Notes under the pieces: model-generated | What the model was told of the DNA's origin: nothing | Database searches by the model: none | The model's input: the letters and a program-made list of their open reading frames with translations, nothing else | In this document: one piece after another, positions 13,372-40,114 of the stretch | How positions within the stretch are numbered: the first letter of the stretch is position 1 | Layout of the letters: each line of letters begins with the position of its first letter | Source of the DNA: Deroplatys truncata | Taxonomy: Eukaryota > Arthropoda > Insecta > Mantodea > Mantidae | Length of the DNA stretch: 64,000 bases | NCBI GenBank assembly: GCA_030765065.1 | Contig: CM060984.1 | Location: 100,607,488 to 100,671,487 of the forward strand | Reading direction: 5' to 3' | Translations under genes and position numbers: made by a program

Positions 13372-13408
13372 TTAAGCATTAACTCCATCAGGTTCACATG
13401 CCTTTCTA

Positions 13409-13521
13409 CTTACTTTCTCTACTACGTATAATATGTAGGGGAAGTATTGTATTCCACCCAAAAATTCGATACAGAGATTTCACCGGAAATATATGTTTTG
13501 AGAACCCCTGAATCCAAAAAA
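13409..13521 (-). repeat. Tail of an outer A-run repeat, split by a nested copy
   Basis: Minus-strand tail, ending at TGAATCC plus six A. The same copy resumes at 14361 with GCATTTTTGGAAACATGTCC, the sequence that normally follows this A-run. Confidence 0.88.
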
Positions 13522-14360: not shown

Positions 14361-15206
14361 GCATTTTTGGAAACATGTCCCTGTGTGTGTCTGTGTCTGT
14401 GTGTCTATGAACAGCATAACTCAGAAACGAACAGTCGGATAAACACCAAACTTGGTACTTAGGTTCAGTATCTTCCAGAGATGCGACAAGAAGGTTTTCA
14501 AGAAAATCCCCCACCCCGGATTACCCTTTACATGGAACATTTTTCAAAAGTTTTAATTTTCTCAAAAATGGCTGTAACGATTTTGATTAAAATATCATAT
14601 GTTTAAGATACTATCATGACAAATAAAATGCATATCTTGAATTTTCTGGGAATGTCTCCAAAAGTATTCTTCATTGTGAACGACTTTTGCATAACTGGTA
14701 AAGCATAAGAGATAGACAAATGTTTACTACGTAAAAATGTAGATCGCGTTAAAATACACAATTTATGTCATGTACATTTTTGATGTTGAGTGAACCATTT
14801 TCGAGATGTTGCTTGTTGTTCCCTTAAATTTTTCAATACTTATTTTCTCAAATGGGAATTCGTTATTCATTTTTTTGTCTTGCATATGCAAAGAGTATTA
14901 ATCTGTGACAAAGAGAATGGTGCTGCACCTAGCAACCAACTATTAAGATGTATGTCGATGCTTAAAGTCTACTGTATTTCTATATTGCCCTTGCAAATAA
15001 AAAACAAGGAGAACTTAGTACACCTTAAGCCATAGTCAAATATTTTTAGAACTGGTCGCTATGTGTAAAATGTAATTCTCTTTGCATGTCAAGAGATCGT
15101 TTCTGCAAATGTTTATCTCGAAATATATGAAATAGATGGAGAATAAGAGTTTGTAAACATAGTTTGTACAAGAGTAGAGAAAGTCATGTGAGTGTAATAC
15201 ATCAGA
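14361..15206 (-). mobile_element. A-run repeat, outer copy with fold-back head
   Basis: Continuation of the copy whose tail is at 13409-13521. The body is standard. The head (14880-15206) contains an inverted piece of itself, with CATGCAAAGAGAATG-type sequence appearing more than once. The same rearranged head occurs at 58604-58935, so it is a propagated variant. Confidence 0.82.
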
Positions 15207-18920: not shown

Positions 18921-18934
18921 TTTTTCTGCACGCA
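18921..18934 (+). promoter_or_regulatory. Possible splice acceptor of a 5' UTR exon of Ilp7
   Basis: A pyrimidine-rich stretch ending in GCACGCAG lies 24 bases before the Ilp7 start codon. It could be the acceptor of a leader exon. No TATA box or initiator is convincing nearby, so the promoter may lie upstream beyond a leader intron. RNA evidence would decide. Confidence 0.3.
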
Positions 18935-18958
18935 GGTTAACGTGAGCTCAAGATCTTG

Positions 18959-19059
18959 ATGCTGTTGCACGTGTCCACAGTCACGGCAATTTGTGTTCTG
19001 ATAGAGCTGTCTGATTCCACTTCTACAGAACAGGAATTGGAGGAGTTGTTTAAAACGAG
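18959..19059 (+). CDS. Ilp7: Ilp7 exon 1: start codon, signal peptide, propeptide N-terminus
   Basis: The ATG at 18959 is the first in frame after an in-frame TAA about 20 bases upstream. It encodes 33 residues plus two bases of a split Arg codon. A hydrophobic run (VSTVTAICVLIEL) follows MLLH and serves as signal peptide. The acidic stretch EQELEELFKT then leads into the B chain, as the corresponding part of Drosophila Ilp7 does. The donor at 19060 reads GTAAGTT, close to consensus. The signal peptide is short and its hydrophobic core contains a Thr and a Cys, so the exact cleavage site is uncertain. Confidence 0.88.
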
Positions 19060-22000
19060 GTAAGTTACTAGACAGCGTAACCCGGTTATGAACTGAAGTT
19101 TCAGAACTAGGGTTGCCAGATTTCCTCTATCCCTGATAGCACTTCATCTCAGTTTCCTCGAATCCTCCGGCACAGCTATTTAGGAAATTTCGCTCGTATT
19201 TTACCTGTGAGTGCCATATTTTATCATTCTTAATTGAAACTGTCATAGGTAAATAACAAAAGTGTGGTTGTTGAGATTGTCGCATAAGATTGTGAATGCA
19301 TAGAGCTGATTAATCTCACAACCTCGAGTGTTATTTATTATAACTATCTCAAGAACAAATCTAAATAAATAATGCCATTGTTATTATAATAAAATATACC
19401 CAAAAAGAGTAATTTCTGCTTTGGTGTGTTGTGTTTAAAAGCAAATAACCATATTATTTGGAACATTACTACCAACTATGAATGATGTGAAGTTGTTTTG
19501 TTTTATTGTTATCTGCCCCACGCTTTGGGAGCCAATCTGAAGTAGGTTGTTGCTTCACGTATGGAAAGCCAATTTGAAGTAGCAGTTGTATTGTAGTTCA
19601 ACTGTTGGAGAGCCGAACTTTAAGTAGTTGCAACAACACGTATGGCAAAATGTTTCCGGTAGTCTTCGTTCCAAAAAATGTTTAAAAAAATATTAACTTT
19701 GTAATTTTGACTGTTTCTTTAAATATTATATGTAATTCTTGACATGATTTTAATAACACTTCACTGATATAGAGAGCTGTGAGATTCTTTTGTTAATTAC
19801 TTGCACTTTTTAACACGTGAACTATTTTCGTCTCACACGAATACGTATTAAAATTTCTCGAGGACAACCAAAGCGTCCAGTTATGAGCACTGCCTACAAG
19901 CAACTGACTTGATTTCTTCCGCCTAAATTTGTAAATTTCTGTATTTCAAGTCTCTGATTGGCTATTCCTAATCCAATAGAATAGTTTTATTTAACTAAAA
20001 CTTTCTCCAGTTGTTGATTGGCTATTTTATAAACTGTCATAAAGATTAAATTATTGTTGCTCCAATAATGACTAGTAGCATTATTACACTTTCTTACTCA
20101 TTATTGTCTCAAGGTTACCTCATTGTTAGCAACTTTTAACCTATTATTCTCAAGGCTCCTACATTATTAAATTACGTATTACATTCACATAACATTATTG
20201 AACATGTATACGATAATATAAACGTTTACAATGACTAATATACACTTTTTTATATTGTTACATACATATTGCTTTAAGGCGGGGTGTTGTTATATTTATA
20301 TTACATAATTTGACTGAAATCATTTAAGTGTTAAAAGTATTGCCTCATATGAAACCACACCTAATCTGTAAAACAGAGGTAAAATGTTAGATACTAAAAA
20401 TGTAAGTCCCCTGGAAGAATAAAATCTACTTTTACAACAATTAATTAAGCTTGACAAATGTTGCAGCTGCCTATTTGTTTTGGATCTCCCACAATCGAAA
20501 CAGATGACGAACGATATTCATATGCGTTTAAATTTGGAAGAGGTATAATACTGGAATGATTATTATTTCTCGAGTTTAATAATTACGTTGCAATCAGGCC
20601 GCCATATGTAAGGAATTCTTAAATATACGTCCCAAATTTTCCAAAAAGTACAAATTATCAACCTTTCCCAACCCATCATTCCTTCCGCCAGAAAAATATT
20701 TGTGTAGAGAACCAAGTCTTTTGATTAAGTTGCATATCCTGGAGATCAACGTAGATTTTCGTGACAACAAATTCCTTAGAACGTTTATAGCCTGGTAAGA
20801 TAGTACTGAGTAAGTTGTTCAAAATAACCTATTCCCTCCACAACACTAATCACTCATTAAAAATGAACTGACTTCTTAGACTTTGTAACATTCAGAACTC
20901 CCTTTTATCGTTGACCTGAGAAATTGTATCTAGCCTTGTATGAAAATGAGTGCACCGTTCTGGAGCGTACATTTTTCTTAGTGTTAGTCACTTGCCAGAC
21001 CTTATGAAGCATATAATTTTTGGTTACTACTAATTAACACGGAAGACGCACTTCTGTCTACTTGGATAAGATACACCTAGTGATCGACGTTGCTCGTGAA
21101 TGACAAAACTGGTCAAGCCCCAGTACTTCATAAACGAACTACTTCATTTGAAAGGCTCCCAATTATTAATTAGCGTGAATGAGTGAGCCAATTAGTAGGA
21201 ATGAACTGCTTCGACCCATCTCTATTTTCAGCTTGGAGATTAAATCATTACCTACGTTTATGTAAAATAAGCTTCATTAATTGAAACTTGTGGATATTTT
21301 AGTGGCTAGTTTTTTTGCATCAAGTGCACAGTCAAAGAAGATAATTACGGTTGATGTGAATAGCGAGCTCTGTTTTGATATAGGTCCTTGTGCACGCAAT
21401 TTCAATTAGGTCTCTGTTTACAAATTAAGCTTTAAAAGATTTGCTTGGTTATCTGTAAAGCGAGATGCTGCATGTCAAGTACGAAATAGAAAAGTGAGTA
21501 ATTGCATGTGTTTAAAAATGTTTAATATGCAAAAAAATAGGATTTAAATCAGACATCACTCATAGTTAATCGGCATTTCCTGTATTTACATCAAGTAAAT
21601 TTATTAATCGACATGCCTTCCCATTTTCATCTTCCGTTCGTTGTGAACTTTATAAACCAACATGACTCAACTATTTCGCTTTCCCTTCTCGTTCCAGTTC
21701 CCATTCACGATATATCTATTATGGAAAACCGAGCGAGATGGCTCGGGCAGCAACGTCTGTACCCCGCATTCGGGTGCTCGTGGGTTCGATTACCATGGAT
21801 GAACTTCCTGACCAATGTGTTTTTTCAGGGGTTTCCGCGGAACGCCAGATGAATGCTGGGAAAGATCATTACACCCTTTGGATTTCCTGTCCCTCCATTT
21901 CATCTCCATTCTCATTTCACTTCACCTTTCATCTGCTTGGTTTCTTCCGGAGTTGCAAGTGTCGACGTGCGCATGACAGGGGAAAAAGATGCTCTGAGAA

Positions 22001-25000
22001 AACCTTCGTCCTCTGGACCGCGAGTGCCCTCTGGGTCCCGGACCCCAGAGGGTTTGTGTAAGCCCACAGGAGGAAGGGAGGCCGGATGCATCAGCCAGCA
22101 CCCGCAAAGTTCAAATTTGTAAATGGTAGGGACCCTGCCCTCTGCCTGTCGTGCTTCCTGGTCCGGCCGCCCTGTCTCCTCTTATCTCATCCCTCCCTTC
22201 CTTCCAGGGTCGCTCCGTCAGGGGAATAGCCACAACACATCTGCGTAGATCGAGGTGCTAAGTCCCCACCGATTCCAATTCTATCCTATCCTATTATGGA
22301 ATAGTCTTAGTAATAGATAAAGCTCAATTATTAAACTGGATTTAAAACAACTACTTACCGTTCCGTTCCCGGTCTGATTGTCCTTTACATTGCCATTCCC
22401 AACGGACCAGGCTATAACTTCCAGGCTATACTCTAAAGCGACAAAATAGCCACTAGGACTGCAAACTGTTGCTGTGTAATGGGCCAGTAGCTAGCGCTGG
22501 GCCTGCTGCCCATTCCATATCCCTCACACACCAGTTACTTAGACTTGGGCCCCACTTACATACACTAAAGCGACAAAATAGCCACTAGGACTGCAAACTG
22601 TTGCTGTACAATGGGTCAGTGGCTAGCGCTGGGCCTGCTGCCCATTCCATATCCCTCACACACCAGTTACTTTGACTTGGGCGCCACTTACATACACTAA
22701 AGCGACAAAATAGCCACTAGGACTGCAAACTGTTGCTGTGCAATGGGCCAGTGGCTAGCGCTGGGCCTGCTGCCCATTCCATATCCCTCACACACCAGTT
22801 ACTTAAGACTTGGGCTACCACTTACATACACTAAAGCGACAAAAATAGCCACTAGGACTGCAAACTGTTGCTGTGCAATGGGCCAGTGGCTAGCAATGGG
22901 CCTGCTGCCCATTCCATATCCTTCAAACACCAGTTACTTAGACTTGGGTCACCACTTACATACACTAAAGCGACAAAAATAGCCACTAGGACTACAAACT
23001 GTTGCTGTGTAATGGGCCAGTAGCTAGCGATGGGCCTGCTGCCCATTCCATATCCCTCACACACCAGTTAGTTAGACTTGGGTCACCACTTACATACACT
23101 AAAGCGACAAAAATAGCCACTAGGACTGCAAACTGTTGCTGTTCATTCTCTCATAACAAGGCTCATCTCTATTTAACTTGCTCCTGTTTGTAGTGACGGT
23201 TATAAGCATGTATGCATTGAATACATTATCGTAAAAACTGTCAAAGTCACAAACTGTCAACAATCCTTCAATCAATGACAGCAATACCTGCTACATTACC
23301 TCCCGCCGTCAAGTACCTTCTACTCTCAAGTGTGCCGCTGGGTGCATACTACAATTGTAAGAAGGAATTATACGATACACTTCTGTTACAGAATTTCCAG
23401 ACCGTTTTAACATCCTGTTTGTCGACATATTTACAGTAACATTCTTCAGAAGCAAATTATTGCTAAGGAGATAAATATACCCAAGTGTGTGAAACAGTAA
23501 TTTCTTTCGGCAGATCAAACGAAGACTGGGAGCAGGCCTGGCATCAAGAGCGCCATGCTAGGTGTCAGGAGAGACTGCTGCGCCATCTTTATTGGGCATG
23601 TGAGAAGGATATCTATCGACTGTATCGCAGAAACAGCCACGACGAGGAGGACCAACCTCCGTCGGAGAACAATTCCAGTAAGTTTATTCCTGACCGCTGT
23701 CCGTAAATGGATATCGTTTGGAACCATGAAGGTGTGCGGGTTTGAGATAAAGCAGAGAACGACACTGTGGTACATCAAGTGTAATGTGTTCTAATGTCGA
23801 ACACGGTACATGATATATACATTGTATTAACTTATAGGGGTAAGAATATGCCACATAGGGTGGCAAAGTGTGATTCAAAAATCGCGCTGGTTTTAATACA
23901 GCATATAGTGAATTTTATTTCTGAAAAGCACATTAAACAGAGGTATTTTAATTTAGAAAATTATATCTTACTGGTATGTAAGAATCTGTCCACGAAATTC
24001 ATGACTACCTCACAAGCTTGCATTTTGATTTCGCCAACAATTCCATAAATTTCCTCCTTTAACTTGCGGATGTTTCGGGATTGTTGACATAAACCAATGC
24101 TTTTATTTTTAATTATCATATATATATAATTAATTGAAATTAATTATAATTTTAGAGACCTTAGCCTAGTCATGGCAAGTTTTTAATATAGAATCAACTG
24201 CAGCTCAGCCGGGATTTAAACACGGTTCTCCCGCTCTCCGTGCGGTTGCTCTAACCATTGAGCTACTGTGACAACATGCCGGTGGAGCATTGAATTCCCC
24301 AATTGATGAAGATGTTTCCTAGATAGACTACTAAGGCATCTCACTAGAGGCATCCCACACTTGTTCGGCCTCATCTTCAAAAAGTAAGCGCCGATGATGC
24401 CACCCATCCAAAATCTACAACAAATATCACTCGCTATGAACAAATTTCGTTTTTATGAATCTACTAAAGATTTTCTGATCTCCCGATGTGGCATTTCTGC
24501 TTATTCACAAATCCATTTAAGCGGAGGTGTGCCTCGTCATTGAACATGGTATTTCGTCGTCAATCTATCGACTTCTTAAAACTCAATCAACAAAATGTGT
24601 CCTTTTCTAGTGATCTGTCACTTTCATGTGTCGTTTTAACTGATTTTCGAAGGGTGGCAATGGAAATCATACTGAAGAATTTGCTGCAATAAAGAATATA
24701 CCATGTGCAATTATTGAGGACGGTGACCAACTGATTTCATTGGACTAACATTCACGTTGCCATGTAATCACCGGCAGAACGAGAATACCTAGAGCTTTTC
24801 ATGGTGACTTTTGAAACTGTTTCGTTAATTTTTTCATAAATCTCTGAACTGTTGATTCATTCGGTGTTTCAATACTCCTAGAATCCCATGGTCTCTGACA
24901 GCTCCTGCACAACTCCGTTTTGACAAACGATTCCACACGTTTGTTAGTTATAACACGTTACATGCGTTAACACACAATGAGGAAAAGCAGACTGAAGTAC

Positions 25001-28000
25001 TAGTCGGCCACAATATGAGTGCTTGCGGTAGGAAGAGGAACTAAACAGTTATGGAACGGAACATGTGGGCGAGTTATCGGAAGGAAAGTCAGGTAAATAA
25101 AACATCCGCAGTTCCTAGTTGCATTTACTGGCGAAGCTGAGGCCTGAAAATGTAGTACTGTTTTCACTGGGTAACTATACATCCCCGTGTTGCCTTGCCT
25201 CTCACTCCCCTCTGATCCCTAGCCTTAATGACGTCCACATCGTCAACAAAAACACTGGCGCCTTCCTACAAGCTCGTTCATGTTGTGGCCAACTAGTAAT
25301 AATCGGAATGTTAATAGATATCAGCATGATGCAGAATTGTTGACAGCCAAAGGACAACTAAATGGCGAGCGATTCGAAACCGCCGCGCTTTTATAATATT
25401 TTGAAGAATCTAATTGCAGTATAAATTACTGATGAGAATCGAGGCAGCTAGTTATGTTACTGTTGCACTACAAGAGAGAGGCACCGGAGTATTATCGGGT
25501 CGCGAGGTGTAGGCGTGCCAATGGCTAACAGGCTTTACCTGCCGTCCCGACTTCACATGTCTCGGTTCCCATCCTGCAGCCAATAACGAAACCGGTTTAC
25601 CTGCTTTCCCAACATAACACGTCTCGATTCCAATCTCCAGCGATAAATCACAACCGCAAAGCAGGCTGTCCTACGAGAAACATGCTTGTCCTATTATATT
25701 TTAAATTCAACTTCTTGATTATTTTGTCATTACCGAAGATACGTAATCACTAAATAGTTTTCTTGATTAGCATGAGTGAATACTAAAATAACACTTTAGG
25801 CTACGATGGATAGGAATATGATATTGAGGCCTGGTAATAAGGACACTTTCTGGAACAATGTCAGATTAATGTCCCTTATTATTGCTTCGAACACTGTATT
25901 CACAAAATTACAGCACAGCTGGAAGCACGACCTAGTTTTTCAAAATTAATTAGTTAGCAATAGAAAATAGGCAATTACTCTTAAAACAGCTGATAGACTT
26001 AAGATGCTGATAATAAGCTGGAAACTTCAATACAGCATTTGCGCTACAATGAAACCGCCCTCCCAACGTTATTCCGCTGTTCACGTGAAGAAGTTATCCA
26101 GATAAAATGACAATCATCGCTCCCGGATAATTGTTTCTATCAATACGTACATACACTGCCGTTTGTGAAAATTGCAACACTAAGAAGGAATTTCCCGAAT
26201 AACCTCAAACTTGGTGGAAGTGTAGAAGAATGTGCAAGCAATAAGTCATTAGGTTTGCAGAGAGATTGGGCACACATAGGCCGAGCAGAGCCCTCTCGTG
26301 TCGGTCTAACAAGGTCATTGTTGCGCCCAGTGTAGTCTGTGCAGAGCTGTCAAACAAGGTGAAAACAGTAAAGTAGGTGCCAGTATGCCTCGTACATGTC
26401 AAAGGGAGCCATATCGGCATGTGAGTGAGTTCGAACGCGGCAGAATGATCGGTCTCCGGGAAGCAGGTTCGTCATACCGTGACATTTCGGCTCGTATAGG
26501 GCCAATGCGTGTGTGGACGCAGTAGATTTGTGAAGGTCGTACGCAGCGAAAAGCTGCGTACTGAACCACGGAACATGAGCACAGCATGGGAAGGAAGACC
26601 GTCATCTTGTCCGCATGGCCATAACGGACCGTACAGCTTCATCCACAGTGTTGGTTCGACGGGAGCACTGCAACAGGTGTGAACTTGTCTGCACCAACGG
26701 TCGCCGTCTGCTGCAGATTGAACTGGTTGCATGCATGCCATTACGTCGGCTTCCATTTTCCAGAAACCACAAGCAATGGGCACGTGAACACCATCACCGG
26801 GGTGCTGTGTGGCAAAATGTAGTCTTTTCGGACGAGTCCCGCTTCAACGTATTCTGCAGTAATGGCCGCATGTCCGGCGGTACCGTGGTGAGCGCAACCT
26901 GGAGGGCTGCATTGTTGAGCGGCATAGCGGACAAACACCAGGTGTGATGGTTTGGGGCACCATTGGTTACAACAACCGATCTCTTCTACTACGAATTGAG
27001 GGTACTTTGAACAGCAACCGGTACCTAACGGCGGGTGTAGAGCCTGAGGTACTCCCCCCTGCTTCAGGCATCTCCACAGGTGGCCACATTTCAGCAGGAC
27101 AATGCCCGGCCACATATTGCGAGGAATGTACAAGCCTTTTTCAAGAGCGATGGGTCCCATTGCTTCCCTGGCCTGCATTTTCCTGACATGTCGCCCATCG
27201 AACATGTCTGGGATATGTTTGGTCGGCACCTGGTGCGCCACGGTCCTCCAGTAACTAGTGTCACGGATTTGTGGGCTCGAATACAAACTGCGTGGAGGGA
27301 AATCCCTCAGGAACTTATTCAGAACCTTTTTGATTCAATGCCACGGCGTATCGTAGCTCTAATTGCAGCGCATGGAGGCCACACCAAATACTGAATATTA
27401 GGGCTCAAAGGTCATGTATAAATTTGAAAAGTGTATCATTTGTTACTTGTCATGTACCTAACCTGTGGTATTAAATTCATTGAATTCATCCGTTTCCTTC
27501 TTGGTGCTGAAATTTTCACAAACGGCAGTATGTATACACACACACACACACAGTATGTATACACACAGTATATACACAGTATGTATACACGCGCACACAT
27601 CCTGTAGAGGATATATTACATTTTTCTTACAATGGTACCGCATAACTGCTCAGTATGAGTACTAATGAGATACTGACTTTCTTCCAAGGAGAAGAAAATT
27701 ATTTATTGCTCCTTGGTAACATTCATTATTCTATTACTATTTTACTTTTTATGGAATAAACACGTATGCTTGCTGCCTTCTACAGATTTTTCTTTACATA
27801 TAAATTTTAACCAAAGTTAGCACGGTTGCTGTCTAAATAAATAAACTCAGCTTATAAATACAAATATAGGTTAATAAAGAACAAATTCTCAATTTCATAA
27901 TAAATAAAATATAATAATTATGATTACAACATCAAAAATGTGCAAGTAGCATAACACATTCATAAATGTAACATTAAATTTAACCAGTTCTGTATATTTT

Positions 28001-31000
28001 ATATTCTTGAGTCAAATACAATTTGCGTTTAAGCTTTCTGCTTCAAGCTGAATCTCGATTCTTAGGAAAGAGTAACTTCATTGTTACTAACCTTGTCGGC
28101 CACATTTTGAAACGTGAACTTTAACCCTAGAGGAAGTGAATTAAATCAGGAATAATGGCAGATTATTATTTGAAAATATATTCCACAAAATAATTAACAA
28201 GCCTAATTTCTTTCTTTTAGTGAACTGACACTTCAATCACATAAACCATTACAATTAACAAACCCTTCTTCGTTCATCATTATTTACATGCTTTACGGCT
28301 TAAATGCTTTACATTTAATTACAATAGTGACAAATTGCTTCCTACTCTCACATTTACCGATATGTTTCAGACCAACCACAATAAGTCTATAGATCCGACA
28401 CTCAATCTTTTTGCGGTGCCTTGTAGACAGCACCCTTGAAGAAAGCTAGGCGTGATCCAGCGCCTGCGCAGACAACGACCACAATCGCCTAACGTACTGC
28501 TTGAGTCAAACCAACTTCGTCCATTCTTGTTGTTGTAGTCGACTCGTTGAGAAGTACTGCCCTAGTCGTTTCCCTTCTATTGCTTTCCTTTAGTACAGCC
28601 CCGTCGCGTACTGTATATTTCTCCGGGGAGGATCAATTTGGCACAATGTTCAAAACCACATGTGTTATTTAGAATTTTCCAATACAACTTTTGGCGAATG
28701 GTCCTTCCATTCGTATCATGTTTACGTTGCCGTTAACTTTATACTTCATTTTAGTACTTCATGCAACATACCGACAAGCTGATCACTGACACTACTAGCC
28801 TCGACGTTGCTCATTTGTTTGTCAGTACTCCCTTCAACATTCCTGGCTCGATTCTGCTCACGAGACCTGTTCTGCACTTACTTTTGTCAGTAGAAGAGAT
28901 TGAGCTTAGTGAGAGCGTTACAGGCTGGACACCCTTACGTAAGTTACACTCAACGTCATTGCACCCCAGCTCTCGTACACTGGCTTCCATTTATGCCGTT
29001 GCCACAGCTTTGGAAGCCATTCTACTGACCTTCACAAGTGAGTATGTATAGCAAAGAAGAGGTGCGTGTATCTGTTTACATTTTCACGCATACAGTGGCG
29101 TCCTGTTTTACTGCACAATTCTAGATTATTCACATATGAATATACAACTTTGAGCAATAGCTTTGCTCGTCATCACTTACATATACGAGGGCTGTCCAGA
29201 AAGTAATTTCCATTCATGCATAGCACGAGAAGTAGTGGCAGTAGCGCCGCTGTTTCGACATCAGCGTGTGCAGTGGCTCAGTACGCTTCTAGCTGTGCAA
29301 GGTAGAGCATCGTACTGTCGCGTGTTTGCTAGTTATAACCCAACAACATAAGCGCCGAAATATCAAATACCGCCAAGTGTGAAGTGCGTGTGAATTGTGA
29401 AAAGGCTAAGAAGAGCAATGCAAAACAAGCGTCGTGGTCTTCTGACTTCTGTTTTTGTGTCTTTGCATGACAACGCTCGCCCTCACACAGCAAACAACAC
29501 AAATGAACTTTTGGACAAGTTCAAATTGGACATTTTTACCATCCCCTGTACAGCCTGCACATGGCCCCTAGCGACTTCCATCTGTTCTCGTACATGGAAA
29601 AGTAGCTTGCAGCTCAGCGTTTTGGCAATGACGAGAGCTTCAAAACACCGTGACAGGTAGGCTTATTTCACAGGCGGCAGAAGTTTATGCAGAGAGTATT
29701 TCAAAGGCTGTGAAAAGGTATGAGAAGTGGATGAATCTGTTTGGAGACTACGTAGAAAAAATAGGGAAAAGCTGTAGTTTTCAGATTATATTGAAAAACT
29801 TTTGAATGTATACCGGTTTTATGTTTATTTCTAAACATTAACTCTACTTTCGTGTGCAAAAACACTCCTCAAAATATTAAAACTTTGTAATTCAAGGCGG
29901 TTAGGGTTAATCAGTGTATACCTAGTAATCTATTCGATTCCGTATTACTACGTTTTAATTATTGGTATATTACGTTGCTTTTGGATCAAAGTATTTGAAC
30001 GAAGATTTTATAGATGAGAGAATTTAGATTCATGCAGTCATATAAGGATCACATTATTGAAATTGGCCATGCTCCTAAAGTTTTGGGGATTTTATATACA
30101 CTGGTGTGCAAAACCTAAGGACAATATGGGTAGTATTATAACAAATGAACTACTTGGTGGAAGTAGATGAAGGTGCGGGAGCATGTTGCCAGAGGTTTCT
30201 CACATGTACACAGAAAGCTGGACGTCACATGGCGTGAGTGTAGCGAGCCTATAGTGCCAAATGGGTCTGGTTTCCGCAACACTGGGCAGTTGACGAAACC
30301 GGAAAAGACGATGTGTGGCAATTGGCGAGCTGTTATGGTGCACTGTAGTGTGTTTTTCATTGCAACATGGCCGTAGACACCATTTGGATGACTTCACACG
30401 GGGAAGAATCATCGAGAAACTGGAAGAAGGGCGAAGTGTGATGAGTGTTGCTCAGGAGTTTGGATTTGCTCACAGCATTGTTTCACGTGCATGGGGAACC
30501 TTATAAACCACACGCACTGCTGTCCCAAGGAGAGGTGGTGGTTAACCACGCTCAAATACAGCAGCAGATGACCGCTACATTGTGCAACAGGCAAGAAGGA
30601 ATCCATGCCAAACAGCGGGTGCAATTGCAACCACGTATAACAGGGCAGCTAGGCACGCAATCTCACGATACACAAGCACGGCGACTACACAGAGGTGTAC
30701 TCCTTGCCGATGGTCATTACGTTGTGTTCCATTGACATCCGCATATCGGCGGCACCGTTCACGATGGTCCCAAGGGCATCAAAATTGGACCAACGAGGTT
30801 TGGGGTCGCGTGCTCTTCTCTGATGAGAGCAGATTCAGTCTAAGTATGATTCTCGACATACCCTCATCTTGCGAGAGGTGGGAACACGCAATGAACCCAG
30901 GAAGATCGTTGAACAAGATCGTTTTGGTGGTCCGGGTGTTATGGTTTCGGGAGGCATAATGTTGCATGGGCGCACCGACCTCCAAATCTTTGAACACGGT

Positions 31001-34000
31001 ACGCTCACTGGTGAACACTATTGTGATACTGTACTCCTCCATGTGCGTCTTTTCAAGGGTGCAGTCGGCCCTGATTTCATTTTTATGGATAACAATGCGC
31101 GACCGCATCGATTGGCGCAGGTTCTAGAGGATATTCAGCGAATGGACTGGCCTGCCCGTTCCCCCGAATTAAATCCCATCGAACACGTGTGGGATGCTTT
31201 GGGGAGACGCATTGCAGCACATCCACATGCACCAACGACCATCCAACTGTTGTCAACAACGCTGGTGGAGAAATGGAACGCTTTACCACAAGAACTGCTT
31301 ACCAACGTTGTAGCCAGCATGGGAGCACGATGCAGAACAAGCATTGCTGTCCGTGGTGATCATATATCCTTTTAAGCACCATGTATCTGTTTCTATAAAT
31401 TTAGACAGCCATTATATGTGGTATTGACTTTAGTGTAGCTTATGGCATATGAATAAAAGTGACATTTCTGTTCGTCTCATTGCATATTTCGTTTAGTTGC
31501 CTACTGTAGCATACCATACCAGTTCCCTCTATGTATGATTCATGTTTCGTCGAGCTATGTTACTCGGCAGTGTCACAGAACACGCAAAGATTACTTTCGT
31601 CCTCCTTAGGTTTTGCACATCAGTGTATATCGTAATTGAAATGGCACAGACCTGGTAATTCATAAGCAATAGGAATAACATCTGATCTACTCTTGTCTTT
31701 TGCATACTCAAGCAACAAAGAGGTTACCATTATCAGGACCATATAAGGTTGCTAAATTTAGTTAGTAATTGATTTGAATGCAGATTCCTAAGGCTTTAAC
31801 TTTTATTAATATTTTATTACTTTTTCTATTACGTATAGTAAGCGGGCAAAGTATTGCTTTCCACCCTAAAATTCGATACCGAGATTTCATCGGAAATATA
31901 CGTTTTGAGACCCTCTGAATCCAAAAAAAAAGAAAAAAGCATTTTTGGAAACATGTACGTGTGTGTGTGTGTGTGTGTGTCTGTGAACAGCATAACTCAG
32001 AAACGAACAGTCGGATAAACACCAAACTTGGTATTTAAGTTCAGTGTCTTCCAGAGATGCGACACGAAGGTTTTCAAGAAAATCCCCCCACCCCAGACTA
32101 CCCTTTACATGAAAAATTTTTCGAAAATTTTAATTTTCTAAAAAATGGCTCTAACGATTTTGATTAAAATATAATATGTTTTAAGATATTTTCTTGACAA
32201 ATGAAATGTATATCTCGAATTTTCTGGGAATGTCTCCAAAAGTATTCTTCATTGTGAATGACTTTTGCATAACTGGTAAACCTTAAGAGATAGACAAAAT
32301 ATTACTGCACAAAAAATTTAGATCGCGTAAAATACACAATTTATGTCATATACATTTCTTTTGTTGGGTGAACCGTTTTCGAGATATTGCTTGTTATTTC
32401 CTTAAATTTTCCAATACTTATACTTTTTTTCAAATTCTTTATTCATTTTTTTATGTCCTGGACATGCAAAGAGAATGGAATGCGCCACATAGCAACCAGC
32501 TCTTAAAATATTTGACTATCGCTTAAAACCTACCAATTCCCCTTGCATCTATAAGAAAATTAGCAATAAGTTTAACATTTCGATTAACATGAAGCATATG
32601 GAGAATAAGCGGTTGTAGAAATAGTTTGTACAAGAGTAGAGAAAGTCATGTGAGTGTAACACATCAGATTTTTTTAGTCCTGGACATGCAAAGAGAATGG
32701 AATGCGCCACATAGCAACCAGCGCTTAAACGATTTGACTATCGCTTATAACCTACCATATTCCCCTTGCATCTACAAGAAAATTAGCAATAAGATTGACA
32801 TTTCGATATCTCGATTAACATAAAGCATATGGAGAATAAACGTTTGTAAAATAGTTTCTACAAGAGTAGAGAAAGTCATGTGGCTGTAACACATCAGACT
32901 TTTTTATGCCCTGGACATACAAAGAGAATGGAATGTGCCACATAGCAACCAGCTCTTAAAAGATTTGACTATCGCTTAAAGTCTACCATATTTCCATTGC
33001 GCCTACAAGAAAATTAGCAATAAGATTAACATCTTGATTAACATGAAGTATATGGAGAATAAGCTTTTGTAAAAATAGTTTGTACAAGAGTGGAGAAAGT
33101 CATTTGAATGTAACACATCAGATTTTTTTCTGTATTAAAATGTTTTTTCTGAAATTGTACAGGCTAAGGAAACTAGGTATATACATACCTGCAATCCTAA
33201 GGTTCGCGTGCAATGTTGGTGTAAATTACTTTGGAAGTAACTTTTACTAAAGAAGTCCGTATTGGAAAGTAACGTTGGATAGCTCAACTACAATTTGCTT
33301 TTATAGTTATTACTACAGAATTACAGTTCATTACTCGCAGAGTATTTTATATTTGCGCAGGTTACTTGAAGTGATTATGTTATGTGTTATGTGGGACACA
33401 AAAGGGGGAAGCGTTAGCGAAAGAGATTGCTTTTGTTGGTAGAGATAATGAAAATCCAATTAAGGAATACACATATACAGCAAAAAAAGAGAATGTATTT
33501 ATAAAGTTCCTGGATAAGAAAATAAATACCTGGAAAGTTGTGATGTATGAATTTAATGCTTCAAAGCTAGGAACAAAGAGCAGAAATCCACGGAAACACA
33601 AGGAACATTTTAAATTGGCGGTAGTTCACACACCTATAACATACTTGGACGATGTTTCGAAAATAATAATTGAAATAATGCCTCAAGTTTCCGAAGAATT
33701 AAACTCAGTTTGTAACATGGTGCAACAGAAGCAAATTTAATCGGAAATAACGGTCATTGCATAAATATTGAAGCTCTCGTGGTGATTTGGAACATCAACT
33801 GGGTCCAAGTTTGGACATTTCGGTAATAATAATCCTGATGACTCCACGAGTGTTATTGCTGTAAGTTCAAAACATGGTTAGTGAAAACTTAACTCTTATT
33901 GTGAAAAGAGATGAACACGTCAGAAGCAGAGATAACCATGAGGTTTTGTTACTTCGAACAATTAAATTTAGGATTGGATTAATAAAAAGCACTAAAATAT

Positions 34001-37000
34001 CTATAGAAGAGTGTGTTACCATCTAAAATATTAAAACATAGTGGTATGTAAATTTTACTACAGAAAATAAATACTTGTCTCTTTCGGCTTCTACAGACTT
34101 ACGATTCAGTAGCGGCTACGGAAATGCTTTAGCAATGCCCTAATACCGCCTTAATTCATGAACACGTCAAAACATCTTTCACGATGCCGTATTGTGGTTT
34201 AATTGACAGATGAGTTACTTCATCCAGGTCATGAGAGAGGTCTGAAGGCCCTCTATAACCACTCGGTTAACTCCAAGCTGGTCTTAAAATGCCGCGCGTT
34301 CCTCACAGCTTCCCACAATTCAGTTCAGCTGAGGTGGGTGTCAGGTCATGTGGGAATTTTGTGCAATGAAAGCGCGGATCAAGCCCCTAAGAAGGGAACT
34401 AAGAAACATTTTAATGGACCCTAACCAGTACTGGGGATGTTATCAGTGCCGGTTAAGCTCGTTACAGGGACTGGTTGCGCAGAGAACCGAGAAATGCTGA
34501 AACTCAATAGGATTCAGGCACTTCAAAGCTGTCATACGGAGATTGGACAGAAGCAGGTAGCGAAAAGTGCAAAACTTAGGCGGGAAAAGCTCTCATTGGT
34601 AACATGAGACAATTGCCCATCTATTGTGCGAGTACCCAGCACTTGCGTCATTAAAGAGCCCTCGTTTTGGTTGTCAATTTCCAAAATTGGAGGATCTTTC
34701 AACCATCACGGACCAACCATCAATTCAGTACCAACGTTAGTATTCTAGATCAAGGATAATAAGACTGGGGATGCGCAATAAATCTACAAAGATCGTAGTG
34801 GAGGACAGTGTCACCTCCCCCTATTGTACTAAATTAAACTGTATTTTGCTCTTTTTAATTTTATAGTAACATAAAACAAGTTGGTGCTCTTTAACATTTA
34901 CTCCCGGAGTATCTGAAAGTAGTTTACTCCGTATGGAAGTTACCGAGTGTTGACTTTAATAGTAGTTTACTACTTACTCTAGGTTGGTGTACTCCGGCCT
35001 ATTATTGCCAAACTCTGCTGCATTTCTTAAGTTTCGGGGATTTCGTCGCTTTGTCTTAAGATTATCGGATTACTGCCAGAGAAATTTTGTTTCGGTTGGT
35101 ATTAAACAAACTATTCACCTGAGTAGATAAACCCCTCTCCCTCTTCACCCAAAAGTAGTATTCTTCTCTGCGAACTATGCACCTCTATTTGTTTGAGGCA
35201 ATGCACCTAATAAAAATAATGAACATTTTAAAAAGACTAAAATTTTCTTCTTTCTTTTTATCATGTTGACCCCTATAATTTCACTTACGACTTCTGGTTG
35301 CTAATTTCAAAAATGTTTAAAGGTCTTAAATACTAATATTAACTACAATACAATACTCTAATGGTCATTCCAATATTAAATGCCATTTTTCTCAAAACCC
35401 TTTTTTTTTTATCGTATTTCATTACTTAAAATGCTCCACAAATAATTATTAAACAATTAACATGAATGTTCAATAAGATTTCAGAAATTATTATTACAAA
35501 GGCTCGCATGTCCGCCTTTAAAAGACTTATTGTTTTTCTTTTATTAAATATTTTCATACTATATATTCATAAAATTTAAACATATAAAACAAACAAACTT
35601 GATCATTTAAATTTTTTTTTTAATTTTTTGAGTCGGAAAATGTAAATTCACATCACATACGTGCGCTAGATGTTATCGCAGGAGCGCTTTCGAGAGATGT
35701 TTCTCTCATCTTCAGCTGAGAGTCGGATTCTCAGCTGAAGATGAGAGAAACATCTCTCGAAAGCCTCCTGCGATAACATCTAGCGCACATATGTGATTGG
35801 AATTTACATTTTCCGACTCAACAAATTTTAAATGTTACATAACATCACTATAAATAATACTTCTGGTTTATCATAAAAAAACTTGATCATTCTTTCGCAA
35901 GGCTTGATTGAAATTTATATAAAAAATCTGATGTGTTACACTCTAATGACTTTCTCTGCTCTTGTACGAACTATTTGGACAAACGCTTATTCTCCATATG
36001 CTTCATGTTAATCGAGATGTTAATCTTATTGCTAACTTTCTTGTAGATGCAAGGGGAATATGGTAGGCTTTAAGCGATAGTCAAATCTTTTAAGAGCTGG
36101 TTGCTACGTGGCGCATTCTATTCTCCTTGTATGTCCAGTACATAAAAAAATGAATAACGAATTCCCATTTGAGAAAAAGTATAAGTATTGGAAAATTAAA
36201 GTGAATAACAAGCAATATCTCGAAAATGGTTCACTCAACAACAAAAAATGTACATGGCATAAATTGTGTTTTTTAACCCGATCTACATTTTTTGTGTAGT
36301 AAAATTTTGTCTATTTCTTATGGTTTACTAGTTATGCAAAAGTCGCTCACAATGAAGAATACTTTTGGAGACATTCCCAGAAAATTCGAGATATACATTT
36401 CATTTGTCATAAAAATATCTTAAATATATGATATTTTAATCAAAATCGTTAGAGCCATTTTTGAGAAAACTAAAATTTTCGAAAAATGCTCCATGTAAAG
36501 GGTAACCTGGGGTGGGAGGTTTTTCTTGAAAACCTTTGTGCCGCATATCTGGAAGATACTGAACCTAAATACCAAGTTTGGTGTTTATCCGACTGTTCTT
36601 TTCTGAGTTATGCTGTTCACAGACAGACACACAGACACACACACCCGGACATGTTTCCAAAAATGCTTTTTTTGGATTCAGGGGGTCTCAAAACATATAT
36701 TTCCGGTGAAATCTTGGTATCGAATTTTTGGGTGGAATACAATACTTCCCCTACTTACTATACGTAGTAGAGAAAGTAAAAACTATTTGATGTTTCCTAT
36801 AAGTTTTTGTTAAAGCCAAAATAACATTTTGAGCATGATGTGACATACCATTTGACAAAAACTTATTGTTCCATTTCTTTGTTTTTTGTTCATTTGATTT
36901 TTTTGTTTTGTTCCATTCATACCCCGCCTCTAACTGCTGTGGTTATATCGGCAGCCTTTTACCTTGCAACATATTGTCTTATCGGCAATCTGGAATGGAA

Positions 37001-39961
37001 CTCGGGACGCTCGCACAGCAAACAGGAGCGCTACCGACTGAGCTCTTCTATTTCTTGTCAGTCAAGATAAACTTTCAGACATTTACGCATTTAGGTATAA
37101 GACGGATACAGTACGATAAAGTAAATGTAATATTGAAAAGAAACGGATCGCTATGTGATGGCTTTAAAATTATCTTTGCATGACCAACAAAAGCAATAAC
37201 GACTTACCACTTGAAAAAGATATGACTACATATGTAATAATTCAAACCAATAACAAAGAATATCTCGGAAATGGTTTACGCCACAGAAATGTTTATTTGA
37301 CATTTTGTCGCTTAATGACATATGCATCTCTACGGTTCTCTTACGGTTTACCATTGTACACAAGTAATTCAGAATATAGAGGACTTAACAGGCAATTCTC
37401 AAAAAAATTCAAGATATATGTTTTATTTATTATGAAAATGTCTTAAACACATGCCATTTTAATCAAAATCCTTAGGGTTATTTTTGTGAAAATAAAAAAA
37501 AATAACCAAAAACGTTCCATGTAAAGGGTAGTCTGGGGTGGAGAGTTTTTCTTGAAAACCTTCCTGAATATGAAATAGTGAATATAAATACCGAGTTTCG
37601 TGTTTAACCGATTTTTCGTTTTTCAATTACACATTTAACATACACACACATTCAAAATTCGATATTCGATATAGAATTTTTGGGTAGAATGCTATAGTCC
37701 TCAATTTACTATAGGTAAGTAGTAGAGAAATTCAAAACTCTGATGTGATACATGCACATGAATCTACTAATGACCAATTCACATTATATCCTACTATAGT
37801 ATGAATACAAAAAGTAATTCTTCTGTCCATCTTACTTTACTCACAATATTTTTTGTGCAGGGACGATTTCAAAATAAGTAATAATGTTTAGTTACAAAAG
37901 CAATCACAAACAGTAATCTATTCGTGGTAATAAGTTCTTGAGATGGAAAGAAGTAAAGAAAGAAAGAAAAACAATCAAAGTTTTTTTTCTCAAAAAATGC
38001 CCCTTCTGGATTCAGAGACTTCAAAACATGTATTTCCAACGAAATACATTGGGTTGAATGTTCTACAGAAAGTAATATACCTGAAAGAAGCACACACTAA
38101 TTTAAATTATGGATGCTGCCTTTATGCTACATTATCCTAGAATAAAAGGTTCAAGTCAAATTAAAACTGTGGATTGTAAGATTTTCACAGGTCCATTGCG
38201 TAAAGGAGTTCCTTGACTTATCTTCCAGAACGGTTAAAATAATTCCTCATTCTGACCTAATGTTTTATGCATTTATACTCGGGGGATGCTACCTATGAGT
38301 ATGTCACATGATCGTTTAGTGGTGAGGTAAGTTATGGCAATCTATCTATGAAATTTGGCAAAAAAGACGAAATTTTCGATTTATTTTGTTTTGTTTTTAG
38401 TTTTTGCATTTTTATTGTTCTTATAAGTTGTAATTTCTTGCTACAATAGTTATTTATGAAACAGATATAGAAAGCGACATATTTTTGAACGCGCGAGAAA
38501 CACGGCTTTCTATAAAAGCTGCATGCATCATTCTTTCCGCTACCTACCTCAAAAGTATGTCATTGTGTCCGTAGTCTGTCATTTTTAAAGTATAGGAGAC
38601 GCAATACGAATTAATGATGAAGTTCTTCTGATAATTAACAGTGAAGTTGCAAGAATCGATTTAGGGTAACACTCGCAAATAAACGAAGTTCTGTGTGGTC
38701 GCCATTTTACGGTTATTGTAACATACGAGTTTCTTAAATTAAAACTGAAATAACAGGAGCTTGGAAAGTGACAAAGGTGTTATTCTACTGGTATACAGGA
38801 ATCAGCAGTACAGTAACAATCAATTTATTAAATAAATGAAAATTCTGTTGTAGGTTATGTTGAATAAAATGTTTGGAGCTCAAGTTTATTTCCTTCTGTA
38901 AAAAAATCAGTCTTGCAAATGACAAGCTTTCGCAACTCCAATCAATTCAAGAAAAATACTTTTGAGGTAGCTAGAGGAAAAATGTTTCAATATCAATATA
39001 TTTTCAAGCCTCAAATTGCTATTTAGTTGTTCTGGCCAATTTAGGAAGCACCGCGCTGAACTTAAACACCATTTTTTTCATTTGTTTTTCTTTGCTAAGC
39101 ATTTTTTACTATTCAAAGTGCTTCATGGACCAGAGTTTATAACTTATTAGTTCATTTTCAAGAGACCTTCAGGAATTATGAATTTAAAAATTCTTGTGCA
39201 GTACCTATAAATATTAAATAGTTCAGCTGAAATTATTTACTTGCTATAACTCATATTGAAGAAGTTAAACAATTAACTATCATAAAATACAAAATCTTGT
39301 TTTACACTAATTAAAATTAAGAAATCCTATTCAACTATTTGTTATCTTTGTATACCAACCTCAAATTAAAAGTTTGGGAGTGATACGATAAGCTGTAAGA
39401 TCCAAGGAGCATTTTATATTACCATAAGTTATTATTTATGAATAAAAAATTAGTATTTTAATAACAGTTCAACCTGTTCAAATTATGCTTTACGTTCCAA
39501 ATAGAACGTACAGTAAAAAGGTCAAAGCAATTAGAAGAAAACTGTGGATTTTTTTTATTTTCATAGATACACTACCTTACACGTATGTCCTATTTTACTG
39601 ACGATTTTTTCTCCTCACTTCTATACCAGCGTTAAAAATATTTTGTCGCAGTCGGTGATTTACTAGGCTAAATCGCAGCTATTAATTCGCCGAATGTGAC
39701 ACAGACTTCATTGTTCTAATACTTTTAGTAATCTAGTTGTATTCTGATGACACTAAAATGCATATGTCCTGATCCACAGGGTGGCCGTTCCTGAGTGTAT
39801 TGGAGGCGCAGGTGTACTTGAGGGATCGCCGTGGCGCCAGAAGACGGAGAGCGGCTACTTCCTCCATCACTGATGAATGTTGTGTCCGTACAGCTGGCTG
39901 CACCTGGGAGGAATACGCCGAGTATTGTCCGAGCAACAAACGCTTCAGAAAATTCGTCTAG
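18959..39961 (+). CDS. Ilp7: Insulin-like peptide 7 (relaxin-type) precursor, three exons
   Basis: Secreted insulin-family prohormone, orthologous by sequence to Drosophila Ilp7 (arthropod relaxin), which is made by neurons and signals through receptors of the insulin/relaxin systems. Joining 18959-19059, 23514-23677 and 39780-39961 gives 148 residues. Residues 1-20 are a short hydrophobic signal peptide. The B chain has C51 and C63 spaced C-x11-C with L55, L59 and Y60 in insulin positions, and ends in dibasic R72-R73. The C-peptide ends in R109-R112. The A chain has C122, C123, C129 and C138. The stretches WACEKDIYRL and CTWEEYAEYCPSNK are the hallmark Ilp7 sequences. Both introns have GT donors and AG acceptors and matching phases (AG|A and A|GG, both Arg codons). 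The reading frame is intact, so this looks like a working gene. Introns of 4.5 and 16.1 kb are packed with mobile elements. I recognised the family from memory; no search was run. Confidence 0.93.
19500..20347 (+). repeat. Dispersed LTR-like repeat, copy 1
   Basis: Matches 56387-57345 over most of its length, for example GTAATTTTGACTGTTTCTTT, ATATAGAGAGCTGTGAGATT and TTTGACTGAAATCATTTAAG. It opens with repeated GxxGCCAATxTGAAGTAG units like inverted retroviral primer-binding sites (reverse complement TTGGCxxCC). Most likely LTR-plus-leader of a minus-strand LTR retrotransposon, but no coding part remains. Confidence 0.55.
20348..21728. other. No gene seen
   Basis: Intron 1 sequence, AT-rich, without open frames or recognisable elements. 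Confidence 0.4.
21729..22270 (+). mobile_element. Long tRNA-derived SINE
   Basis: The head CCGAGCGAGATGGCTCGGGC with GTGGGTTCGATTACC resembles tRNA A and B boxes. It is followed by a GGTTTCCGCGGAACGCCAG-type core and AATGCTGGGA, typical of insect SINEs. The remainder aligns with the minus-strand copy at 59745-60290, including GGGACCCTG and the closing GGTGC-AGTCCCC-CCGAT. A 9 bp stem CCCTCTGGG/CCCAGAGGG sits at 22027-22052. The open frames here are incidental. Confidence 0.65.
22433..23142. repeat. Minisatellite, 132-134 bp period, five units plus a partial
   Basis: The unit start CTAAAGCGACAAA recurs at 22433, 22565, 22697, 22831, 22965 and 23099. The first units are 132 bp and later ones 134 bp. 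Each unit contains AATGGGCCAGTxGCTAGC and GGGCCTGCTGCCCATTCC. Units differ at few sites, so expansion is recent. It lies in Ilp7 intron 1. Confidence 0.95.
23514..23677 (+). CDS. Ilp7: Ilp7 exon 2: B chain and start of C-peptide
   Basis: The acceptor is the AG at 23512-23513 after a pyrimidine-rich stretch, and the donor GTAAGT starts at 23678. The exon encodes a SNEDWEQAWHQ lead, then the B chain with its C-x11-C pair and the diagnostic WACEKDIYRL, then the RR processing site and an acidic C-peptide segment (HDEEDQPPSENNS). The exon is 164 bases: one base completes the Arg codon from exon 1, 54 full codons follow, and one base carries over to exon 3. No stop interrupts it. Confidence 0.95.
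24195..24285 (-). mobile_element. tRNA-derived SINE head
   Basis: On the minus strand, GTAGCTCAATGGTTAGAGCA (A box type) and GTGTTTAAATCCCGGC (B box type) lie about 40 bases apart, as in a tRNA gene. The tRNA fold is not complete and the sequence runs on, so a SINE head is more likely than a functional tRNA. Confidence 0.5.
24286..24950 (-). pseudogene. Tc1/mariner-like transposase remnant
   Basis: The minus strand carries FNDEAHLRLNGFVNKQKCH (about 24480-24550, the first catalytic Asp region, usual form SDEAHFxLNGxVNKQNCR) and, after a frameshift, FWMGGIIGAYFLK (about 24370-24415). Many stops and shifts are present. The SINE head at 24195-24285 abuts its 3' side. Terminal repeats were not found. 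Confidence 0.55.
24951..26153. other. No gene seen
   Basis: Intron 2 sequence between mariner-like elements. No open frame with a known motif. Confidence 0.35.
26154..27530 (+). mobile_element. Tc1-type DNA transposon with terminal inverted repeats
   Basis: The left end CACTGCCGTTTGTGAAAATT and the right end read as its inverse (AATTTTCACAAACGGCAGT) form imperfect terminal repeats of about 37 bp, continuing to CACTAAGAAGG / CCTTCTTGGTG. A TA precedes the left end; the right TA is mutated. Length 1.38 kb is normal for Tc1 elements. The transposase inside is broken. It lies in Ilp7 intron 2, same strand. Confidence 0.88.
26385..27394 (+). pseudogene. Tc1-type transposase, frameshifted
   Basis: Would catalyse cut-and-paste transposition at TA sites. 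The start MPRTCQREPYRHVSEFERGR and SYRDISARIG form the helix-turn-helix that binds the terminal repeats. Stops and frameshifts break the middle. Catalytic blocks remain: FSDESRFNV (first Asp), QQDNARPH (second Asp) and DMSPIEHVWDMFGRHLVRHG (Glu), the DD34E signature. The C-terminus GHTKY and a TGA stop are intact. Several inactivating changes, so non-autonomous today. Confidence 0.88.
27531..29178. other. No gene recognised; CA microsatellite at its start
   Basis: 27534-27595 has broken (CA)n with repeated CAGTATGTATACACA. The rest is AT-rich intron. The open frame 28761-29051 (+, 96 codons) has no motif I recognise. Confidence 0.35.
29184..29820 (+). mobile_element. Mariner element with internal deletion
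   Basis: The left end ACGAGGGCTGTCCAGAAAGT is the classic mariner terminal repeat, and NVKYRQV follows. The sequence then jumps to RLRRAMQNKRRGLLTS and LHDNARPHTANNTNELLDKF, the second catalytic block, and on to a C-terminal MNLFGDYVEK-like end near 29750. The N-terminal and first catalytic regions are missing, so it is an internally deleted derivative. The expected inverted right end is not visible. Confidence 0.75.
30099..31625 (+). mobile_element. Tc1-type DNA transposon with terminal repeats and TA duplication
   Basis: The left end CACTGGTGTGCAAAACCTAA and the right end (inverse of CACTGATGTGCAAAACCTAA) match except one base. TA flanks both ends (30097-30098, 31626-31627). The element is 1,527 bp, in Ilp7 intron 2. 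It is from a different Tc1 subfamily than 26154-27530. Confidence 0.93.
30362..31375 (+). pseudogene. Tc1-type transposase (DD34E), frameshifted
   Basis: N-terminal helix-turn-helix: GRRHHLDDFTRGRIIEKLEE and SVAQEFGFAHSIVSRAW. Then TAADDRYIVQQARRN, FSDESRFSLS (first Asp), GPGVMVSGGIMLHGRTDL, FIFMDNNARPHR (second Asp) and ARSPELNPIEHVWDALGRRI (Glu). The C-terminal SIAVRGDHISF and TAA stop are intact. Frame changes lie near 30506, 30560 and 30850, so no full protein is made. The GRRHH start is out of frame with the nearest ATG (30371). Arthropod Tc1 elements of this type are usually about 340-350 residues, which fits the span. Confidence 0.92.
31812..32668 (-). mobile_element. A-run repeat, complete copy
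   Basis: Minus strand, from a tail with TTTTTCTATTACGTATAG through a (TG)n block at 31959-31981, body and first head (ending CACATCAGA at 32668). Two further heads follow in tandem to 33122. Confidence 0.85.
32669..33122 (-). repeat. Two extra tandem head modules of the A-run repeat
   Basis: On the minus strand, heads start at 33122, 32898 and 32668 (periods 224 and 230 bp). Each runs from TCTGATGTG (or GTCTGATG) to the TCCAGGACAT-plus-A-run end, without bodies between them. The result is a three-headed element. Confidence 0.82.
33384..33740 (+). CDS. Unrecognised 118-codon open frame
   Basis: Uninterrupted frame, rich in Lys/Glu/Ile, with segments EALAKEIAFVGRDNENPIKE, NVFIKFLDKKINTWKVVMYE and VVHTPITYLDDVSKIIIEIM. 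It ends with TAA after MVQQKQI. No signal peptide, membrane segment or motif I can assign. The ATG at 33384 is not in a strong context and the sequence around it is AT-rich. It lies in Ilp7 intron 2 on the same strand. It may be an exon of a nested gene, a transposon-derived fragment, or chance. Confidence 0.25.
   Translation: MLCGTQKGEALAKEIAFVGRDNENPIKEYTYTAKKENVFIKFLDKKINTWKVVMYEFNASKLGTKSRNPRKHKEHFKLAVVHTPITYLDDVSKIIIEIMPQVSEELNSVCNMVQQKQI
34160..34800 (+). pseudogene. LINE RNase H and C-terminal remnant
   Basis: The frame at 34203-34424 reads SHNSVQLRWVSGHVGILCNE then SADQAPKKGT, the C-terminal part of a retrotransposon RNase H domain (usual form WVPGHxGIxGNExAD). Beyond it, shifted frames read REMLKLNRIQAL and, near 34620, a remnant of the cysteine-rich LINE end (CPSIVRVPSTCV). 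This order fits R1/I/Jockey-type LINEs with RNase H. Stops make it dead. Confidence 0.75.
34801..35627. other. No gene seen
   Basis: AT-rich intron sequence with poly-T tracts near 35402 and 35611. Confidence 0.35.
35628..35821. repeat. 194 bp near-perfect palindrome
   Basis: Arms run from TTGAGTCGGAAAATGTAAAT inward to CTTCAGCTGAGA and back, around a 7-base centre GTCGGAT. Each arm contains CTGAAGAT, a GAGAGA/TCTCTC stem and GAAAG (35735-35763 plus, 35687-35715 minus), the same layout as the Penelope terminal motif at 54929-54963. It may be two head-to-head Penelope-type termini. Confidence 0.85.
35927..36782 (+). mobile_element. A-run repeat, complete copy
   Basis: Starts TCTGATGTG after six A and ends GAGAAAGTAAAAA. 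The microsatellite is CAGACAGACACACAG-type at 36620-36644. The copy is well preserved. Confidence 0.85.
36975..37053 (-). mobile_element. tRNA-derived SINE head
   Basis: On the minus strand, GAGCTCAGTCGGTAGCGCTC (A box) and GTCCCGAGTTCCATTCC (B box) are spaced as in a tRNA. Neighbouring sequence is CA/TC-rich, so this is a SINE head rather than a tRNA gene. Confidence 0.5.
37060..37735 (+). repeat. A-run repeat, diverged copy
   Basis: Diverged head end, body (including ATGTAAAGGGTAGTCTGGGG) and a tail reduced to ATTCGATAT-GAATTTTTGGGT and GTAAGTAGTAGAGAAATTC. The microsatellite is only ACACACACA. Confidence 0.65.
37738..38085 (+). repeat. A-run repeat, deletion remnant (head start and tail)
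   Basis: Begins TCTGATGTGATACATGCACA, loses the body, and resumes with tail sequence GATTCAGAGACTTCAAAACA to about 38085. Confidence 0.5.
38940..39600 (+). repeat. Dispersed repeat, copy 1 (unclassified)
   Basis: Aligns at moderate identity with 49590-50040. Shared anchors are AGTTTATAACTTxTTAG, GAATTATGxATTTAAA, AGTGATAxGATAA and TTATGAATAAAAAATxAG. No coding or terminal repeats seen. Confidence 0.55.
39780..39961 (+). CDS. Ilp7: Ilp7 exon 3: C-peptide end, A chain, stop
   Basis: The acceptor CCACAG ends at 39779. The first two bases (GG) complete an Arg codon with the last A of exon 2. The exon encodes WPFLSVLEAQVYLRDRR, then a run of four Arg that should be the C/A processing site, then the A chain with ECC and CTWEEYAEYC. 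The peptide ends SNKRFRKFV and the TAG stop is at 39959-39961. The stretch around residues 90-106 (W, L, V, A, Y/F, L-R, R-R) resembles the same part of Drosophila Ilp7, which supports the splice join. Confidence 0.95.
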
Positions 39962-40108: not shown

Positions 40109-40114
40109 AATAAA
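40109..40114 (+). promoter_or_regulatory. Polyadenylation signal AATAAA of Ilp7
   Basis: AATAAA lies 148 bases after the Ilp7 stop codon, with T/G-containing sequence downstream. It is the first canonical signal after the stop and gives a short 3' UTR. Confidence 0.55.

Follow-up and report, generated by a model that had tools for sequence, protein, structure and literature searches.

The Dilp7-type genes are the closest described systems to the locus analysed here, and we cite the published work, throughout, from the portions of each source available to us. A pair of introns, one in phase 2 between the signal-peptide and B-chain exons and one in phase 1 within the C-peptide, marks the Dilp7-type genes and sets them apart from the relaxin/Dilp8-type genes, which are described as having the phase 1 intron only (PMC11863921). 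The dilp7 genes of ambulacrarians have the same two introns, and the account that reports this also names a conserved F-domain and denies that the relaxins of arthropods and of vertebrates are orthologous (PMC8286064); 'relaxin' is an older name of the arthropod peptide (PMC7357564). The genes for dilp7, IGF and gonadulin are reported as neighbors in several insects, namely cockroaches, termites, stick insects and a mantis (PMC7357564, PMC10148640, PMC11874938). The pairing of Dilp7 with LGR4 in Drosophila is stated to be confirmed in one account (PMC8286064) and described as indirect evidence in another (PMC11863921). Flies null for dilp7 are fertile (PMC2829060) and the fly Dilp7 neurons are linked to responses to heat and diet (PMC8353279), which cautions against taking a role in reproduction for granted, and the termite data add nothing on Ilp7 function by that paper's own account (PMC10148640).

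The window, the whole stretch of 64,000 nucleotides that was analysed, contains three coding exons that almost certainly make up one working Ilp7/Dilp7 orthologue; the insect is polyneopteran and probably belongs to the cockroach-termite-mantis group. The gene spans positions 18959-39961 on the + strand, and direct reading of the sequence showed the coordinates of the first-pass annotation to be exact. Its features, in window positions, are as follows.

18934-18935, + strand: AG preceded by pyrimidine-rich sequence, 23 bases upstream of the ATG
18959-19059, + strand: coding exon 1 (101 nt), with the start codon, the hydrophobic signal-peptide region and the start of the pro-region
19060-23513, + strand: intron 1 (4454 nt), phase 2, gtaagt...cag
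23514-23677, + strand: coding exon 2 (164 nt), with the F-domain (N-terminal extension), the B chain, RR and the start of the C-peptide
23563-23601, + strand: B-chain C-x11-C, within exon 2
23626-23631, + strand: predicted RR cleavage site, within exon 2
23678-39779, + strand: intron 2 (16102 nt), phase 1, gtaagt...cacag
39780-39961, + strand: coding exon 3 (182 nt), with the end of the C-peptide, RRRR, the A chain and the stop
39839-39850, + strand: predicted RRRR cleavage site, within exon 3
39878-39928, + strand: A chain CCVRTAGCTWEEYAEYC, within exon 3
39959-39961, + strand: TAG stop, at the end of exon 3
40109-40114, + strand: first AATAAA 3' of the stop, a possible polyadenylation signal

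The first and last of these rest on sequence only. When the exons were read and joined, they gave the complete six-cysteine precursor that had been proposed: the spliced coding sequence is 101 + 164 + 182 nt, or 447 nt, and encodes 148 residues and the TAG with no internal stop. Both introns run from gtaagt to ag with the matching phases that had been claimed for them, and the B-chain and A-chain motifs, the dibasic and tetrabasic sites, the stop and the AATAAA are all present at the places given for them. The six cysteines are in the insulin order, C-x11-C and then CC-x5-C-x8-C, with the basic sites RR and RRRR flanking the C-peptide. Exon 1 encodes residues 1-33 and two bases of codon 34, and 25 of the 33 residues are identical to Periplaneta P0001. 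In alignments the hydrophobic N-terminus of the precursor is homologous to the N-termini of its relatives, and the F-domain RSNEDWEQAWHQERHAR, which precedes the B chain, aligns with theirs as well. The AG at 18934-18935 could be the acceptor of a non-coding 5' exon; no such upstream exon was located in the sequence. An in-phase alternative acceptor is situated at 23558-23565 (CTAG|GTGTCAG), and its use would drop 16 residues of the F-domain, exactly those absent from the Blattella model P0005; either both species use this alternative splice or the Blattella gene model is wrong.

A search of the joined 148-residue product against 5.8 billion proteins returned 108 matches at E <= 0.001. The best is Periplaneta americana Ilp7 (P0001; 72% identity over 100% of the query, E 1.7e-63), and Zootermopsis (66%), Cryptotermes (65%), Timema tahoe (61%) and Blattella (61%) follow, each over 100% of the query; all five are annotated as (probable or putative) insulin-like peptide 7. 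The joined product thus matches Ilp7 orthologues over its full length in the comparison that the first-pass annotation had proposed as a check. In a tree of 25 rows it groups with four blattodean proteins at 91/84, below the program's mark for strong support, with Periplaneta the nearest of them by tree path (0.57 changes per column); Anabrus (Orthoptera) Ilp7 is on a long branch outside the other polyneopterans. The evidence on the host thus extends to Polyneoptera, probably Blattodea or a closely allied lineage (Dictyoptera).

The exons were also examined one by one, using tblastn with 126 known relatives as queries against the window (E <= 0.01). These comprise the 108 proteins above and 18 new ones among the 120 matches listed of 181 in a second search, and some of the other 61 of the 181 may be among the 108. 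Exon 1 was matched by 31 of the 126 queries (best E 1.5e-11), and exons 2 and 3 by 125 each (best E 2.6e-21 and 1.1e-21, respectively). The great length of the introns (4454 and 16102 nt) and the repeat-rich nature of the region would suit a reading in which the exons are separate pseudogene copies that together resemble one gene, but we find this scarcely credible, as the window showed a single instance of each exon type, all in the right order and on the + strand, and their phases are complementary. A fourth region could be taken as a trace of such copies, since 4 of the 126 queries matched 63216-63332 on the - strand (best E 0.002), where the open stretch CCLKAGTVWEYC is loosely A-chain-like; however, it is without the third A-chain cysteine and is at chance level, because the same tblastn gave matches in two of ten shuffled windows with a best E of 0.003. 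The A-chain cysteine pattern is by itself weak evidence: it has one match in the six frames of the window, and 200 shuffles gave a mean of 0.16 matches per window. In searches of the insect's own genome (4.29 Gb, 818 contigs), an exact 30-base pattern from the B-chain exon has a single occurrence, a count that diverged copies would escape.

The product scores 21 bits on Pfam Insulin (PF00049; E 6.6e-4) against a cut-off of 23 bits, and because none of the 108 relatives from the protein search shows a precomputed Pfam domain, the model is a poor one for the Ilp7 branch. The search of solved structures with the product gave no significant match (best E 0.16), and the predicted structure of Periplaneta P0001, used as a stand-in (mean pLDDT 72.1, pTM 0.43), matched no solved structure.

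The distribution of sequence changes bears on whether the gene is a working one. At positions where the lettered rows of Periplaneta, Zootermopsis, Cryptotermes and Blattella agree, the window product differs at one of 20 in the B chain, two of 24 in the A chain, seven of 25 in the C-peptide, five of 30 in the signal/F region and one of five in the tail. Since the differences concentrate in the C-peptide, the B and A chains are the most constrained parts, and the pattern is as would be expected of a working two-chain hormone. The frame could still be open in a gene that was silenced recently through loss of expression or splicing, and losses within the Ilp7 system do occur in relatives, as gonadulin has decayed in some termite species (PMC10148640) and locusts are without dilp7 and LGR4 altogether (PMC8220825); few dilp7 reads are reported in termites (PMC10148640), and none of the seven body-part libraries presented for a mantis in PMC11874938 has any. 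We nonetheless consider recent silencing very improbable, because no stop or frameshift is present, both pairs of splice sites, the six cysteines and both basic sites are intact, the changes cluster in the C-peptide, and low read numbers are what we would expect of a neuropeptide from few cells. We therefore favor the working gene.

The window gene has both of the Dilp7-type introns, in phase 2 and phase 1, together with the F-domain, and is therefore of the Dilp7 type. A vertebrate-type relaxin/Dilp8 gene was considered and rejected, as the phase 2 intron and the F-domain separate the signal peptide from the B chain. The original description of the gene as an insulin-like peptide 7 of the relaxin type is thus upheld for Ilp7 orthology, whereas the relaxin kinship finds no support, the available portions of PMC8286064 and PMC11863921 keeping the two apart. 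The further suggestion that the gene could easily be missed finds no support at the level of the family, given the many matches already named (probable or putative) insulin-like peptide 7, and because so many carry that name, Ilp7 is evidently commonly found in annotated genomes. What the window holds is an ordinary, well-conserved and intact example of a hormone gene long familiar from insects, set in repeat-rich DNA. Some Ilp7 gene models are in error, the Blattella model P0005 being 16 residues short and that of Timema douglasi (P0010) having an unrelated N-terminus.

The repeats surrounding the exons are of several kinds. Intron 1 contains a tandem array at 22428-23142 (132-bp unit, 5.4 copies, 95% matches) that stops about 370 bp upstream of the B-chain exon. 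Intron 2 holds transposon-derived frames at about 26.5-27.4 kb, with no Pfam match, and at 30.5-31.4 kb, with a DDE_3 match; the latter, at 30546-31375 on the + strand, are the remains of a Tc1/mariner-like transposase in two frames (DDE_3 E 6.1e-7; HTH_Tnp_Tc3_2 E 0.0055, under cut-off). Also within this intron, 24201-24272 on the - strand has an Rfam tRNA match of 33.5 bits for which ARAGORN makes no call, and which we take to be perhaps part of a tRNA-derived SINE. Dispersed repeat families at 11-7611, 12093-14363, 36150-36785 and 59037-62285 are present in up to 10 same-strand copies, some of them with an internal CA run. The 716-aa open frame at 52302-54452 on the - strand has an RVT_1 reverse transcriptase domain (E 2.9e-39) and is a LINE-type retrotransposon, while the 185-aa frame at 54375-54932 on the + strand, with no Pfam match, resembles the GIY-YIG endonuclease of a Penelope-like element. 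A 219-aa open frame at 9554-10213 on the - strand likewise has no Pfam match.

No second insulin gene was found within the window, but other members of the superfamily lie elsewhere on the same contig (C10). A Pfam Insulin search of the genome, in which 16 candidates were scored and matches listed at E <= 10, gave seven matches, five of them above the cut-off and all on C10; it is no test for Ilp7-like or gonadulin-like genes, since Ilp7 itself is absent from its list. The features of this neighborhood are as follows.

C10:100978920-100979082, + strand: first exon of the IGF-like gene, with signal peptide and B chain, ending in phase 1
C10:100998452-100998583, + strand: Pfam match to the A-chain exon of the IGF-like gene, the exon itself beginning at 100998483
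C10:101048190-101048240, - strand: cysteines of an A-chain-like exon behind a phase 1 acceptor
near C10:101076156, - strand: possible first exon of the gonadulin candidate, with a phase 1 donor
G000:C10:203913347-204136708, - strand: the other six Pfam Insulin matches (L002, L004-L008), with A- and B-chain exons separate

The two coding exons within G000:C10:100978920-100998583 (+ strand), which score 47.2 bits on Pfam Insulin when joined, we take to be the first two of an arthropod IGF-like (aIGF-like) gene; two stops in the Pfam match at C10:100998452-100998583 precede its acceptor and are thus outside the exon. Its ATG at C10:100978920 is 331 kb downstream of the Ilp7 end at C10:100647448 and on the same strand. 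This arrangement is in keeping with the dilp7-IGF-gonadulin cluster known from the literature, on a reading that covers the window, which ends at C10:100671487, and then resumes 228 kb further on at C10:100900000. G000:C10:101048190-101076300 on the - strand, with two exons and matching phase 1 splice sites, is a possible gonadulin but only a lead; it would have a Cx9C B chain, and the candidate went unrecognised in both the protein search and Pfam. The group at 203.91-204.14 Mb, on the same contig but about 103 Mb away, probably encodes short IGF-related peptides and resembles the clusters of such peptides described in cockroaches and termites (PMC10148640).

The A chain offers one point of difference within the family. 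The window Ilp7 (39878-39928) has the spacing CCx5C, which is shared by 10 of the 126 relatives examined, namely Periplaneta, Zootermopsis, Cryptotermes, Blattella, five Timema species and Anabrus, all of them polyneopteran, while 114 have CCx4C and two have no readable A chain. The CCx4C relatives include flies, beetles, a sawfly, a lacewing, a flea, a springtail and decapods, as well as unnamed rows, and because the springtail and the decapods have x4, the extra residue, which sits in the loop from the second to the third A-chain cysteine, would most simply be a gain in Polyneoptera. The insertion is not stated in the portions of text available from PMC7357564, PMC8286064, PMC10148640 and PMC11874938, figures and supplements apart, and may already be known. 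It is conceivable, although rather unlikely, that CCx5C is clade-wide in Polyneoptera, arose once and co-evolved with LGR4; were this so, polyneopteran and other Ilp7s would not be fully interchangeable. The insertion is a small point, but testable by receptor assays.

By analogy, the Ilp7 precursor would be secreted, with a putative signal peptide in its hydrophobic N-terminus; the C-peptide would be excised at RR and RRRR, the F+B chain would be joined to the A chain by disulphide bonds, and the mature peptide may act on LGR4. For a 4.29-Gb insect genome, the analysis provides a firm model of one intact Ilp7 gene and shows that its linkage to the IGF-like gene, 331 kb away on the same strand, persists. 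Since the function of Ilp7 outside flies is little settled in the parts of the literature consulted, such a model has practical value.

Among known systems, the window gene is closest to Periplaneta americana P0001, followed by those of Zootermopsis, Cryptotermes, Timema and Blattella, with which it shares full-length homology, both chains, RR and the basic site between C-peptide and A chain, and CCx5C; 28% of residues differ from Periplaneta, mostly in the C-peptide. Drosophila Dilp7, as in Drosophila birchii (P0061), has the same F-domain, WACEKDIYRL-type B chain and GCTWEEYAEYC A chain, and Dilp7-type genes share the phase 2 and phase 1 introns of the window gene (PMC11863921, in part), but the Drosophila, holometabolan and decapod proteins have CCx4C where the window Ilp7 has CCx5C. 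The aIGF-like gene on C10 belongs to the same insulin superfamily and is linked on the same strand, but a single exon encodes both its signal peptide and its B chain, with no phase 2 intron between them, and its A chain is CCx3C. Vertebrate relaxin and Dilp8 (gonadulin) share the two-chain insulin-family precursor and the phase 1 C-peptide intron and, like the Dilp7 type, are ligands of leucine-rich-repeat GPCRs, whereas their genes, as far as the available part of PMC11863921 goes, are without the phase 2 intron and without sequence between the signal peptide and the B chain.
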